Shown: positions 39,483 to 46,075 of the stretch, one piece after another
Numbering within the stretch: position 1 is the stretch's first letter
Layout: each line of letters opens with the position of its first letter
Origin: Erysipelotrichaceae bacterium
Lineage (GTDB): Bacteria > Bacillota_I > Bacilli_A > Erysipelotrichales > Erysipelotrichaceae
NCBI GenBank assembly: GCA_022772735.1
Contig: JALEZD010000006.1
Coordinates: 1 to 62,979, forward strand
DNA: 62,979 nt
Direction of reading: 5' to 3'
Notes under the pieces: generated by a model
Database searches by the model: none
What the model was told of the DNA's origin: nothing
What the model saw: only the letters and a program-made list of their open reading frames with translations
Translations under genes and position numbers: made by a program

Positions 39483-41492
39483 ATGCAAGAAAGTTGGAAA
39501 GGATTTGTTGGCGGTAGATGGGATAAGGAAGTCGATGTAAGAGACTTTATACAAAAGAATTATACTGAATATTTAGGTGATGATTCATTCTTAGCTGGGC
39601 CAACAGAAGCAACAAAAGCTCTATGGGCACAAGTAATGGAGCTAAACAAACAGGAAGCTGCTGCAGGAGGAGTATTAGATGCTGATACAAAAGTTGTAAG
39701 TAGACTTACTTCACATGGTCCAGGTTATTTAAACGAAAATTTAGAAAAAATTGTTGGTTTTCAAACTGATAAACCATTTAAAAGAAGTTTGCAACCTTTT
39801 GGTGGAATAAGAATGAGTGCAACTTCTCTTGAAGCATATGGATTTAAATTGGATCCAGAAGTTGAAGAGATTTTTACAAAATATCGTAAAACACATAATC
39901 AAGGGGTATTTGATGCGTATACTCCAGAAATGCGTCTTGCAAGAAAAACAGGTATAATCACTGGGCTTCCTGATGCTTATGGTAGAGGTAGAATTGTTGG
40001 AGATTATAGAAGAGTTGCTTTATATGGAACTGACTTCTTAATTGCTGATAAACAAGCATTATTAGATAAAATTCTTCTTGGAACTATGGATGAAGATAGA
40101 ATTAGGGAAAGAGAAGAAATCTCTGAGCAAATAAGAGCATTAAAAGATTTGGCTAAAATGGCACAAATATATGGAAAAGATATAAGTAAACCTGCTTCAA
40201 ATGCAAGAGAAGCTGTTCAAAACTTATACTTTGGATATTTAGGTGCTGTTAAAGATCAAAATGGTGCTGCAATGTCTTTAGGAAGAACAAGTACTTTCTT
40301 AGATATCTATATTGAAAGAGATTTAAAAGCAGGATTAATCACTGAAGAAGAAGCACAAGAATTAATGGATCATTTTGTAATGAAATTAAGACTTGTTAAA
40401 TTCATGAGAACTCCTGAATATAACGAGTTATTCTCTGGAGATCCAACATGGGTTACTGAGTCTATTGCTGGTATGTCATTGGATGGAAGATCATTAGTTA
40501 CTAAAAACTCATTCCGTGTTTTACATACATTAGTTAACTTAGGACCAGCACCAGAACCAAACTTAACTGTTTTATGGTCAACAAAATTACCTGATAACTT
40601 CAAACGTTTCTGCGCTAAGATTTCAATTGAAACAAGTTCAATTCAATACGAAAATGATGATTTAATGAGAGTTGAAATGGGTGATGATTACTGTATTGCT
40701 TGTTGTGTATCTAGCATGAGAGTTGGTAAAGATATGCAATTCTTTGGTGCTCGTGCAAACCTAGCTAAATGTTTATTGTATGCAATAAATGGTGGTATTG
40801 ACGAAAAACAAAAAATTCAAGTTTCTCCAAGATTTGAACCAATTAAATCTGAGTATTTAAACTATGAAGAAGTTGTTGCAAAATATGACCAAATGATGCA
40901 ATGGTTGGCTGGATTATATGTTAATACATTAAATGTAATACATTATATGCATGATAAATACTCTTATGAAGCTATAGAAATGGCATTACATGATCATAAC
41001 GTAAGACGTTTCTTTGCTACAGGGATTGCAGGACTTTCTGTTGTTGCTGACTCATTATCTGCAATTAAATATGCAAAAGTTAAAACAATCAGAGATGCAG
41101 ATGGAATAGCAATTGATTATGAAATTGAAGGTGATTTCCCTAAATATGGAAATAATGATGATAGAGTTGATTTAATTGCTGCTGATTTAGTTAAAAAGTT
41201 TATGAATATGATTAAGGAACATAAAACATATAGAAATGGTGTTCCTACAATGAGTATCTTAACAATTACATCAAATGTTGTTTATGGTAAGAAGACAGGT
41301 AATACACCTGATGGAAGAAAAGCAGGAGAACCATTAGCTCCAGGTGCAAATCCAATGCATGGTCGTGATACTAACGGTGCTGTTGCTTCATTAGAATCAG
41401 TTGCAAAATTACCTTATGAATATTCAAGAGATGGTATTTCAAATACATTCTCTATTGTTCCTGATGCTTTAGGAAAAGATGACAGTAAATAG
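39483..41492 (+). CDS. pflB: Pyruvate formate-lyase body without glycyl-radical domain
   Basis: Cleaves pyruvate with CoA to acetyl-CoA and formate. The 669-residue protein is PflB over its whole length ([17 protein letters not shown] near 105, [12 protein letters not shown] near 158, catalytic Cys 407-Cys 408 in CIACCVSS). It ends at DALGKDDSK-stop, about 80 residues short of the usual C-terminus. The missing piece, with the radical glycine, is the next gene, in the same reading frame beyond one TAG and a ribosome site. It should be inactive alone. Start ATG after AGGAGG. Confidence 0.95.
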
Positions 41493-41504: not shown

Positions 41505-41738
41505 ATGTCAAATCAAATCGAAAATTTAGTAACACTTATAGATGGCTATGCTCAAAGCGGAGGTCATCACCTAAATGTTAACGTGTTTAATCGTGAAACA
41601 TTATTGGATGCACAAAAACACCCAGAAAAATATCCACAATTAACAATTCGTGTTTCTGGTTATGCAGTTAACTTCAACAAATTAACTAAAGAACAACAAG
41701 ATGATGTAATTGCACGTACAATGCACGAAGCAATGTAG
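41505..41738 (+). CDS. Separate glycyl-radical subunit of pyruvate formate-lyase (GrcA-like)
   Basis: A 77-residue protein equal to the C-terminal domain of PflB, with the radical site RVSGYAVNF (Gly 52) preceded by [16 protein letters not shown] and followed by [18 protein letters not shown]. Escherichia coli GrcA (YfiD) has the same domain as a spare part for damaged PFL, but there full-length PflB also exists. Here the domain is supplied only as a separate protein. Ribosome site TAGGAGG (overlapping the pflB stop codon) lies eight bases before ATG, and both are in the same frame. Confidence 0.93.
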
Positions 41739-41761
41739 TTATAAAGAAAATCGATATTTAT

Positions 41762-41790
41762 GAGCAGAGTTAATCTGCTCTTTTATTTTT
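41762..41790 (+). terminator. pfl operon terminator
   Basis: Stem GAGCAGA/TCTGCTC with a GTTAA loop, followed by TTTTATTTTT. Confidence 0.85.
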
Positions 41791-41911: not shown

Positions 41912-43255
41912 ATGAATTTTAATGAATTTAGAAAAAAATATCAAGTGTTTAACTTTAATGGATATGATATATATGAAGATGAAAAAAATATTGAAATAAC
42001 TTATTATTTTGAAATTGAAGGATTGAGTAAATTCTATCCTAAATGGACAATTAAAAAAAATACAAACAAGTGTTTTAAAGAATTAAAATCATTTAAAGAG
42101 TGTGTTTTTTCTCTTGGACTTGTTGAATTAATAAGCTATTGGAAACTTACTTGCTCACCAATTGTAAATATTTTTTCAAATAGTTTGGATGAATACCAAA
42201 TAAAATGGTGGAAAAAATTATATTTCTATGGTTTGGGAGAATTTTTTTACGTAAATAAAATTAAAACTAATATGAATGATTTTATGGAAATAAAAACATT
42301 TGGAGAAAAAATAGAAGGAAAGAGTGATGATTTTAAATTAAAAGGTAATTTAATTCCTGTTGGTGGCGGAAAGGATTCTTTTGTATCTTTGGAACTTTTA
42401 AAAGATTTTTTTGAAGATAATCATACATATGTTATTAATAATGTAAAATCAGCAATTAATGCGAGTGTTGCTGCTGGTTATAGTGAAAAATTAATTAATG
42501 TTCAAAGAACATTAGACAATAACATGATTAAATTAAATAAAGAAGGCTTTTTAAACGGGCATACACCATTTAGTGCTTTAGTAGCATTCTCATCAATTAT
42601 TGTTGCAATGATTTATAGTAAAAAATATATTTGCCTGTCAAATGAAGCAAGTGCTAATGAAAGTACAGTATTAAATGATGAAGTTAATCATCAATATTCT
42701 AAATCTTATGAATTTGAAAGTGATTTTAATGAATATGTGTCTAAATATATTACAAATGAAATTAAATATTTTTCACTTTTAAGACCTTTAAGTGAATTTG
42801 ATATTACTCATATTTTCTCAAAATTAAAAAAATATCATAAAGTATTTAGAAGTTGTAATGTTGGAAGTAAAAGTGGTGTTTGGTGTAACAAATGTGCTAA
42901 GTGTCTTTTTGTTTATGTTATGCTTTCTGCATTTTTAAATGATGATGAACTTTATGAAATTTTTAATGAAAATTTATTAGAAAGTGAAGAAATGTACGAG
43001 CTTTTAAAAGAACTTAGTGGTCTAAAAGAAAATAAACCATTTGAATGTGTAGGTACAAGATCTGAAGTTAATTCTGCTATTTTAAAAGCTATAAAACTAA
43101 GAGGCGAGAATATTCCACTTTTATATAAAAAATATTTAAAAGAAACTTCTTATGTTGAAGTTTACGATGAACAATACTTTAATAGTGAAAATTTTGTTCC
43201 AGATAAATATATTGAGATAATTAAAAATAAATTGAAGGAGCTAAAAAATGCATAA
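41912..43255 (+). CDS. murL: UDP-MurNAc-L-Ala-L-Glu epimerase (MurL-like)
   Basis: A 447-residue protein matching the MurL family, which in Xanthomonas converts the terminal L-Glu of UDP-MurNAc-L-Ala-L-Glu to D-Glu in an ATP-dependent reaction. It has a PP-loop-type nucleotide motif (LIPVGGGKDSFVSLELL near residue 150), CLSNEASANESTV near 245 and a Cys cluster (CNVGSKSGVWCNKCAKC, near 315). It is directly followed by a MurD ligase with an eight-base overlap, the same MurD-MurL pairing. The assignment is by remembered family pattern plus context. Confidence 0.82.
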   Translation: MNFNEFRKKYQVFNFNGYDIYEDEKNIEITYYFEIEGLSKFYPKWTIKKNTNKCFKELKSFKECVFSLGLVELISYWKLTCSPIVNIFSNSLDEYQIKWWKKLYFYGLGEFFYVNKIKTNMNDFMEIKTFGEKIEGKSDDFKLKGNLIPVGGGKDSFVSLELLKDFFEDNHTYVINNVKSAINASVAAGYSEKLINVQRTLDNNMIKLNKEGFLNGHTPFSALVAFSSIIVAMIYSKKYICLSNEASANESTVLNDEVNHQYSKSYEFESDFNEYVSKYITNEIKYFSLLRPLSEFDITHIFSKLKKYHKVFRSCNVGSKSGVWCNKCAKCLFVYVMLSAFLNDDELYEIFNENLLESEEMYELLKELSGLKENKPFECVGTRSEVNSAILKAIKLRGENIPLLYKKYLKETSYVEVYDEQYFNSENFVPDKYIEIIKNKLKELKNA

Positions 43256-44516
43256 CAAAATATTAAATGAATTTAAAGGTAAAAAAATATTAATATGGGG
43301 TATGGGTAAAGAAGGCTTATCTTCATATAAATTTATAAAAAAACATTTGCCAGAAATGAAGTTATATTTATCTGATAGTAAATGTATTGATAAAGAACAA
43401 TATTTTAATGATATCATTGTCGATGAAAAATTATTAAACCTAAATGAATACGATTTAGTTTTGAAAGCTCCCGGAATAGTTTTACATGACCATTTTGAAA
43501 ATGTTCAATCTCAATCATCTATATTTCTTAAATATTTTAAAGAAAATGTTATAGGAATAACAGGTACTAAAGGGAAAAGTACTACTTCAACTCTTTTATA
43601 TCATGTACTAAAAGAAAATTATCCAAGTACATTTTTAGTTGGTAATATAGGAGTACCTTGTTTCGATATTATTGATGAGATGTTGGAAGATAGTGTTATT
43701 GTTTTTGAAATTTCTTGTCATCAACTTGAACATAGTAAATATTCTCCACATCTTAGTGTTTTATTAAATATTTATGAAGAACATTTAGATCACTATAAAT
43801 CGTTTGAGGATTATAAAACTGCTAAAAAACAAATATATTTAAATCAAGATGAAAGAGATATTGCAATAATTAATTCTGATTTAAAAAATGAAATAGATAA
43901 TAGAAATAATATAGTATGGTCAAATGAAACAATATATGCAAAAGATAATGTATTATTTAATGATTTATCTTCTATAAAAATTGAAAAAACAAATTTAATT
44001 GGTAAACATAATATGTATAATATGGCAATTGTATATTATATTGCACATGTTCTTTATGGTGTAACAAACAATACATTTCTTAAAAGAATTGAATCATTTA
44101 CTCCTTTAGCACATAGATTAGAAAATATTGGAACTTACGATGGTATAACTTATATTAATGATTCTATTTCAACAATTGGACAAGCTACAATTCAAGCTTT
44201 AGAGAGTATTACAGATGTTGGAAGTGTTCTTATAGGAGGAATGGATAGAGGTATTGATTATACTCAATTAATAGAATATTTAAAAAAATCAAATGTTGAA
44301 AATATTATTTTAATGTATGAAACTGGAAAACGAATATTTAATAGTTTAAAAAGAGAAAATGTTTATATTGTGAATGATTTATATGAAGCTGTGAGTCTTG
44401 CGAAAAAAATTACAAAAAAGGGTAAATCTTGTGTTTTATCTCCAGCAGCCGCAAGTTATGGTTATTTTAAAAACTTTGAAGATAGAGGAGAAGAATTTAA
44501 GAGGTTAGTAATGTGA
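43248..44516 (+). CDS. murD: Mur ligase of the MurD type (MurD2 candidate)
   Basis: Adds glutamate to UDP-MurNAc-L-alanine. The 422-residue ligase has the ATP P-loop GITGTKGKSTTSTLLYHVL near residue 100, EISCHQLEHSKYSPHLSVLLNI near 158, HNMYNMAIVYYIAH near 247 and HRLENIGTYDGITYINDSIS near 287. Canonical MurD uses D-Glu; when paired with MurL, MurD2 uses L-Glu. The pairing suggests the second, but substrate choice cannot be read by eye. Start ATG after AAGGAG; overlaps recJ by four bases. Confidence 0.9.
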   Translation: MHNKILNEFKGKKILIWGMGKEGLSSYKFIKKHLPEMKLYLSDSKCIDKEQYFNDIIVDEKLLNLNEYDLVLKAPGIVLHDHFENVQSQSSIFLKYFKENVIGITGTKGKSTTSTLLYHVLKENYPSTFLVGNIGVPCFDIIDEMLEDSVIVFEISCHQLEHSKYSPHLSVLLNIYEEHLDHYKSFEDYKTAKKQIYLNQDERDIAIINSDLKNEIDNRNNIVWSNETIYAKDNVLFNDLSSIKIEKTNLIGKHNMYNMAIVYYIAHVLYGVTNNTFLKRIESFTPLAHRLENIGTYDGITYINDSISTIGQATIQALESITDVGSVLIGGMDRGIDYTQLIEYLKKSNVENIILMYETGKRIFNSLKRENVYIVNDLYEAVSLAKKITKKGKSCVLSPAAASYGYFKNFEDRGEEFKRLVM

Positions 44517-46075
44517 AATATGATTTAAAAGAGATAAATCTCACAGGTTTTAATCCGTTAATTGATATACTTTTAGACAGTAATAATATAAGTGATGATG
44601 AAAAGAAACAATTGTTTCAAAGTGAACTTTATTTATCTACATCAAAAGCAGATTGTGTAATAAATGCAGTAGAAAGAATAAAAAAAGCAAAAGAAAATAA
44701 TGAATTAGTTTTTGTTGGTGGAGATTATGATGCTGATGGTATTTGTGCAACAACAATAATGAAAGATACTTTAGATAAATTAGGGATAAGATGTGGATAT
44801 TATATACCTGATAGATTTAAAGAAGGGTATGGATTAAACAAAAATACAGTGCAGCTTGCTTTTGAAAAAGGTTATAGTTTGATAATAACGGTTGATAATG
44901 GTGTAAAAGCTTTTGAAGCCTTAGAATGTGCTAAAAATCTTGGAATTGATGTGATTATAACTGATCATCATTTAATTGAAGAAAAATTAGATTTTACATG
45001 TGTTCATCCTGATTATATGGAAAGTAAATTTAAATCTATGTGTGGAGCTGGGGTTGCATTACAGATTTCAAGAAATTTAATTGGAGAATATGATTTTCAT
45101 ACGGCACTTGCTTGTATTGCGACAATTGGTGATGTTATGCCGATATTAAATGAAAATAGAAATATAATAAAACATGGATTGAAAATTTTAAATAAACACA
45201 TTTATAAAGTGTTTGATTTATTAATCGATAAAAAAGATATAAATGTTATGGATATTTCTTATTCAATAGTTCCTAAATTAAACGCATTAGGAAGGCTTTC
45301 TGATAAATTTAATCCTAATGATATTATTCGTTATTATTTTTTAGAAAAAGATATAAAAAAAGTTATTCTCATGAGTGATTTGATAAATAGAGTTAACAAA
45401 CTTAGAAAAGATTTAAGTAATAAGATGAGTGATTTAGCTTTATCATTAATAGATGATGATAATATTATAATTTTAGAAAATAAAGATTTTCATGAAGGAA
45501 TAGTTGGACTTGTTGCAGGTAAAATTTCAAATATGTATAATAAACCATCAATTATTTTGAATAATCATAATGGAATTTTAAAAGGTAGCGCAAGAAGTAT
45601 CGAGGGTTTTAATTTACATGAATACTTGAAAAATAATTATACAAATTATTTAAGTTTTGGAGGGCATAGCCAAGCGGTTGGTTTATCAATAAAAGAAGAA
45701 GATTTTGAATATTTTAAGGATTTGATAAAAGAAAACTATAAAAATGTAAATAACTTAGAAATTAAAAAAACTGTATATAAAATTAATATTGAAAGTCTAA
45801 GCTTAAATAATGTAAAAGAGTTATTTTTACTAGAACCATTTGGACAAGGTATTAAATTTCCTCTAATATATGTTGAAGATTTAAAAAATATTAAATACTC
45901 ATTAGTAAAAAATATTTATCCAAAGTATGTATTAAATGAGCATTTAGAAGCTATTTGTTTTGAAAAAACAATTGATAATAAAGTAGAAAAACCAAATATG
46001 ATTATTGGAAATATAACTTTAAATAATTTTAAAGGGAAAGAAAGTGTTTCAATAAATATTAAAGATATAGAATAA
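44513..46075 (+). CDS. recJ: Single-stranded-DNA exonuclease RecJ
   Basis: A 5'-3' ssDNA exonuclease of the DHH family, 520 residues. Metal-binding motifs are FVGGDYDADGICATT near residue 68, TVDNGVKAFEAL near 126, TDHHLIEEKL near 152 and ATIGDVMPI near 205. The DHHA1 part shows HEGIVGLVAGKI near 325, GSARSIEGFNLHEYL and FGGHSQAVGLSI near 385. It is a little shorter than the usual 560-580. Start is GTG within GTGA overlapping the murD stop, so it is translationally coupled. Confidence 0.93.
   Translation: MKYDLKEINLTGFNPLIDILLDSNNISDDEKKQLFQSELYLSTSKADCVINAVERIKKAKENNELVFVGGDYDADGICATTIMKDTLDKLGIRCGYYIPDRFKEGYGLNKNTVQLAFEKGYSLIITVDNGVKAFEALECAKNLGIDVIITDHHLIEEKLDFTCVHPDYMESKFKSMCGAGVALQISRNLIGEYDFHTALACIATIGDVMPILNENRNIIKHGLKILNKHIYKVFDLLIDKKDINVMDISYSIVPKLNALGRLSDKFNPNDIIRYYFLEKDIKKVILMSDLINRVNKLRKDLSNKMSDLALSLIDDDNIIILENKDFHEGIVGLVAGKISNMYNKPSIILNNHNGILKGSARSIEGFNLHEYLKNNYTNYLSFGGHSQAVGLSIKEEDFEYFKDLIKENYKNVNNLEIKKTVYKINIESLSLNNVKELFLLEPFGQGIKFPLIYVEDLKNIKYSLVKNIYPKYVLNEHLEAICFEKTIDNKVEKPNMIIGNITLNNFKGKESVSINIKDIE

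Follow-up and report, generated by a model that had tools for sequence, protein, structure and literature searches.

The window analyzed here is a stretch of 62,979 nucleotides (nt; GC content 28%) from an Erysipelotrichaceae bacterium (GenBank assembly GCA_022772735.1, contig JALEZD010000006.1, positions 1 to 62,979). It carries two genes on the forward strand, murL and murD, that overlap by 8 nt. The original prediction described them as a MurL-like epimerase with a PP-loop motif, coupled to a MurD-type ligase. This description is confirmed by the two open reading frames (ORFs), their overlap, a match to the MurL family model and the GGGKDS motif. A Shine-Dalgarno-like GGTGA lies about 5 nt 5' of the murL start, and the ribosome-binding site upstream of the murD start is a purine-rich GAAGGA. 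Coordinates of the genes, of diagnostic residues and of neighboring features are summarized in Table 1.

Table 1. Features of the murL-murD locus (window coordinates; residue equivalents in E. coli MurD numbering).
Feature	Position	Strand	Remarks
murL	41912..43255	+	447 aa, ATG start, MurL homologue
GGGKDS (MurL residues 151-156), PP-loop pyrophosphate-binding motif	42362..42379	+	invariant in 54/54 homologues
C315, C325, C328, C331 of MurL (C(x)9CxxCxxC), putative zinc site of QueC type	42854..42904	+	invariant columns
murD (MurD-family ligase)	43248..44516	+	422 aa, TIGR01087 304 bits
E178 of ligase (D182 in E. coli MurD)	43779..43781	+	Glu also in X. sacchari MurD2; Asp in 26/26 MurDs from the family's MurL-less genomes
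I307 of ligase (K319 in E. coli MurD)	44166..44168	+	I in 92/93 MurL-linked ligases and X. sacchari; K in 26/26
R334 of ligase (K348 in E. coli MurD)	44247..44249	+	R in 93/93 MurL-linked ligases and X. sacchari; K in 26/26
terminator-like hairpin and T run	41762..41790	+	between pfl region and murL; consensus match only
recJ	44513..46075	+	TIGR00644 360 bits, under 396.9 cut-off; neighbor, outside pathway

The murL product matches the NCBIfam MurL model NF041275 with 238.8 bits (E = 8.2e-71, model positions 4-391). This is a Xanthomonadales model with a cut-off of 700 bits, so annotation pipelines will not name the window protein, which scores below it. Alignment with the annotated MurL of Xanthomonas sacchari gives 31% identity over 324 amino acids (E = 2e-53). 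The only Pfam match is a sub-threshold one to DUF6395. The scores of both products against their family models lie far above chance level.

Compared with the canonical system of MurD (TIGR01087) and the glutamate racemase MurI, the window ligase shares the ligase fold and the equivalents of the catalytic residues H183, K198 and R302, which are invariant. In contrast, the D-Glu-specific residues D182, K319 and K348 are replaced by Glu, Ile and Arg (E/I/R). Mutagenesis has established that these three positions (E. coli numbering) govern glutamate chirality: the K319T variant of E. coli MurD accepts L-Glu, while the substitutions E197D/R358K convert Xanthomonas oryzae MurD2 to a D-Glu ligase (PMC8788868). 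Among 93 MurL-linked ligases, position 182 is Glu in 81 and Asp in 12, and the single departure from Ile at position 319 is a Leu. The family's MurL-less genomes supplied 26 MurDs, 18 of them from genomes with detected MurI and eight from genomes without clear MurI, and all 26 keep the three canonical residues. The K319I substitution is the cleanest marker, since Asp182 is kept in those 12 linked ligases and Arg348 occurs in a streptococcal MurD. Overall identity shows the same division: the window ligase is 37-61% identical to MurL-linked MurDs, including those of Clostridia, but reaches only 27-34% with canonical MurDs from the family. A tree of 87 MurDs places the 26 proteins from MurL-less genomes and three structural references apart from all MurL-linked proteins (branch support 99); given long branches, the X. 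sacchari and Bacillota MurD2 proteins may or may not have a single origin.

The genome that contains the window (G000) is a 27-contig draft of 1.79 Mb, 97.5% complete and 0.03% contaminated. Judged by MurL, the closest named genome is a metagenome-assembled genome (MAG; L091) from the Erysipelotrichaceae, whose sequence pair is the one also present in G067, a member of the same genus, with an identical MurD. The original prediction proposed wall synthesis without MurI, to be checked by the absence of murI, of a D-amino acid transaminase and of a second murD. The genome supports this proposal on each count. Profile searches returned no glutamate racemase (TIGR00067), no Asp/Glu/hydantoin racemase (PF01177), no class-IV aminotransferase (PF01063), the class that includes D-amino-acid transaminase, and no second MurD over cut-off. 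These absences rest on profile searches, the controls for each of which were positive in well-known genomes. The organism makes peptidoglycan, as indicated by the presence of MurC and MurE (both over cut-offs), MraY, a penicillin-binding protein and a MurF-like protein whose 216 bits fall short of the 288.6 cut-off.

MurL and MurI exclude each other well beyond this genome. MurL was found in 19 of 146 family genomes, spread over eight genera. MurI over cut-off, where a clear match in the family panel scores 95 bits or more, is present in none of these 19 genomes versus 112 of the 127 MurL-less ones. In a panel of 393 Clostridia genomes centered on Ruminococcus flavefaciens, the equivalent figures are 0 of 17 strong-MurL genomes and 338 of 376 others. 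No MurI over cut-off was detected in 50 further MurL genomes. Weak TIGR00067 matches (20-70 bits) in some MurL genomes were rejected as MurI; they align with just the central part of the model, like Asp/Glu-racemase-type proteins, and in one family member (G141) the sole match, of 37 bits, is of the Asp-racemase type. No D-amino-acid transaminase over cut-off was detected in the 19 family genomes with MurL; the weak matches are ORFs of about 350-380 amino acids, for example branched-chain transaminases. Two genomes listed as 98-99% complete (G016, G056) gave no candidates for MurI, MurD or any other Mur ligase, PF01177 or MurL, and were set aside as either wall-less or not searchable.

The two genes are also coupled across a broad range of hosts. 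A scan of genome contigs found at least 564 encoded relatives. The best 80 of these are nearly all from Bacillota, including Erysipelotrichaceae, Solobacterium, Lachnospiraceae, Pseudobutyrivibrio xylanivorans DSM 14809, Ruminococcus flavefaciens, Oscillospiraceae, and Bacilli and Clostridia MAGs; two are MAGs labelled Bacteroidota. The original prediction of the pair in a low-GC Gram-positive therefore stands in substance and understated its extent. In every one of the 19 family genomes, and at 75 of 80 further loci in the genome collection, MurD is encoded directly 3' of murL. At four loci (L109, L114, L116, L134), murL has no adjacent murD and the partner ligase is presumably encoded elsewhere; at another (L123), the contig runs only 664 bases past murL. 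A Clostridia-panel genome (G216) encodes a natural MurL-MurD2 fusion as a single 1019-aa ORF (L183:3475-6534) with E/I/R intact, and no MurI match was found in this genome. The order murL-murD-recJ-apt recurs in two other genomes of the window's genus, and recJ-apt follows the pair in several other genera, while quite different genes do so in three more (g11, g47, g50). The conserved unit is the murL-murD pair, not the locus. The family may have acquired the pair more than once; approximately unbiased (AU) tests point both ways, with a single MurL clade rejected (p = 0.009) and a single MurD clade not rejected (p = 0.16). A plasmid of Pseudonocardia alni, pPaSha1, encodes a MurL homologue annotated as hypothetical, with no MurD beside it (L195:3264-4664), and two further Pseudonocardia plasmids also carry one.

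On the basis of these comparisons, the pair is very probably an orthologous MurL-MurD2 system, and the genome would then have no need of free D-Glu, a glutamate racemase or a D-aminotransferase. Several points weigh against this interpretation. It draws on sequence comparison and a predicted fold. Asp182 is retained by an eighth or so of the linked ligases (12/93), Arg348 also occurs in the canonical MurD of Streptococcus agalactiae and is not diagnostic alone, and no MurD was detected beside murL at five of the 80 loci. The Fisher p values for the exclusion of MurI (6e-15 in the family, 3e-16 in the Clostridia panel) ignore shared ancestry and so overstate independence, with the pattern being seen in two classes. 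Finally, the D-aminotransferase screen covered the family genomes only.

The first two residue observations lend some weight to an alternative in which the window ligase, though divergent, is a canonical MurD that uses D-Glu made by an unrecognised racemase or taken up, and the MurL homologue has another function. The MurD equivalog model likewise names the protein a D-Glu ligase. We nevertheless regard this explanation as improbable: almost every linked ligase has K319I and K348R and most have D182E, matching X. sacchari MurD2; the exclusion with MurI is strict in two panels; and Xanthomonas has the same gene order, while a natural fusion exists. It is more doubtful still that MurL is a free glutamate racemase, or that it epimerises a precursor other than UDP-MurNAc-dipeptide. 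The net effect, replacement of MurI, would be equal, but the ligase lacks the canonical D-Glu residues and the fusion suggests that the two enzymes have a common substrate. An assembly or binning artefact, with the pair derived from a contaminant or a MurI hidden in a gap of the 27-contig draft, can be practically discounted given the completeness and contamination values, the recurrence of the murL-murD-recJ-apt order elsewhere, both within the genus (two more genomes) and beyond it, and the absence of MurI over cut-off from all 19 family genomes with MurL.

The predicted structure of MurL provides a possible mechanistic basis for the MurL-MurD2 pathway. The AlphaFold2 model of the window protein has a predicted local distance difference test score (pLDDT) of 93.9 and a predicted template-modelling score (pTM) of 0.92. 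Its best structural match is QatC (9y02; Z 18.4 over 319 residues, model residues 9-410), followed by QueC (Z 12.6 with 3bl5, and 12.5) and Cap9 (Z 11.8), after which scores drop to about 8; Foldseek also ranks QatC and QueC first. The Pfam QueC profile (PF06508) is not matched above cut-off by any of 54 MurL homologues, with weak matches in four (best E = 0.0095). A search of the Protein Data Bank (PDB) with the single MurL sequence gave no match, and one with the alignment profile found only the PP-loop of TtuA, with which GGGKDS is aligned. The defining features of QueC are an SGGxDS motif and zinc binding at C(x)8CxxCxxC, and the enzyme converts the carboxylate of 7-carboxy-7-deazaguanine (CDG) in ATP-dependent steps (PMC13329287). 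MurL is thus predicted to belong with the QueC/QatC/Cap9 group of PP-loop enzymes, with which it shares the modelled fold, a loop of the form GG-K-DS and cysteines spaced C(x)nCxxCxxC (n = 9, 11 or 12, and 15 in X. sacchari). It differs from them in the first motif residue (Gly, not Ser), in its N-terminal domain and in its substrate, being an epimerase rather than a deazaguanine enzyme.

Published work on Xanthomonas MurL found that it needs ATP and Mg, makes AMP, acts only from L to D and has no racemase activity on free Glu. The group that discovered it suggested that the alpha-carboxylate is adenylated, and reported no known conserved domains. Placement with the QueC group fits this turnover of ATP to AMP, and a QueC-type site adenylating the alpha-carboxylate of L-Glu would fit the ATP-dependent conversion of a carboxylate by QueC. 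In the sequence proposed for this gut-type bacterium, the ligase would attach L-Glu to the wall precursor, and inversion to D-Glu would follow on that precursor. MurL would use ATP to adenylate the alpha-carboxylate of the attached L-Glu, which would acidify the C-alpha and permit one-way inversion; hydrolysis would then release AMP. We infer the adenylate and the zinc, and also that the Bacillota enzymes catalyse the same reaction.

Some relatives carry the ligase without MurL. In genus g31, two genomes (G102, G141) have the murL-murD pair, and three others (G125, G031, G076; L078, L079, L080) have the ligase at the same place with E/I/R retained. No MurL, MurI or D-amino-acid transaminase was detected in these three genomes, one of which (G031) is a single contig and 99% complete. 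G125 has one PF01177-family racemase; G031 and G076 have none. The family's own MurL profile, searched at E values up to 1, revealed no diverged MurL in the relatives lacking both MurL and MurI; its sole match was a meaningless 9.8-bit one in another genus. These organisms may use another epimerase, import D-Glu, have a ligase of changed specificity or contain L-Glu in the wall. A wider scenario is possible, if rather doubtful. MurL may be a carboxylate-activating enzyme built on the QueC scaffold that has taken on a new role in peptide epimerisation, and the MurL-MurD2 module may have spread through Bacillota in place of MurD and MurI. These three genomes would then represent a genus that has since lost MurL and kept an L-Glu-type ligase, and would have a further epimerase or a wall with L-Glu at position 2.

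In the window, murD ends within recJ, with 4 nt in common. The murL-murD-recJ-apt genes look like one transcription unit, since a hairpin precedes murL and both genes of the pair have purine-rich ribosome-binding sites. On the other side of that hairpin is a split pyruvate formate-lyase. Its core (39483-41492, 669 aa) lacks the glycyl-radical motif, which sits as RVSGYAVNF on a separate 77-aa ORF just 3' of it (41506-41739). The split is conserved rather than an assembly error, as it is also seen in relatives L085 and L090.

The MurD2-MurL pathway of Xanthomonas oryzae was reportedly described by Feng in 2017. The window system has in common with it (XOO_1320/XOO_1319; PMC8788868) both enzymes, the E/I/R glutamate-site residues and the absence of MurI, and the annotated murL-murD2 order of X. 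sacchari, with an overlap, is the same. The window enzymes are only 28-31% identical to those of Xanthomonas and belong to a low-GC Bacillota host; the ligase has Ala/Tyr at E. coli positions 414/416, where X. sacchari MurD2 has Pro/Phe. Two published reviews place MurD2-MurL only in Proteobacteria and rare Actinobacteria, and record orthologues of low similarity from a fungus, cyanobacteria and an amoeba. No paper on MurL or MurD2 in Bacillota, and none naming both QueC and MurL, was found in the literature searched, which excluded subscription papers, and priority is not claimed. A survey of the QueC family (PMC13329287) mentions neither an epimerase nor peptidoglycan. The pathway itself had been described before; this analysis adds how widely it occurs in Bacillota, the signature residues, the fusion and the predicted QueC-like fold. 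The combination of K319I/K348R with MurL linkage provides a simple genomic marker, and the predicted QueC fold gives MurL a testable active site.

The first D-amino-acid step of wall synthesis is often treated as proceeding via MurI, a drug target, and most bacteria depend on glutamate racemase. MurD2-MurL appears to be a widespread alternative pathway in Bacillota, not a quirk of one low-GC species. Metabolic models of MurL carriers are likely to be wrong at the D-Glu step, because profile annotation names the ligase a D-Glu ligase and MurL scores far below the cut-off of the only MurL model. The MurL route appears to operate in many Bacillota of the gut and rumen; inhibitors of MurI should therefore miss them, while inhibitors of MurD2 or MurL should reach beyond Xanthomonas and Stenotrophomonas.
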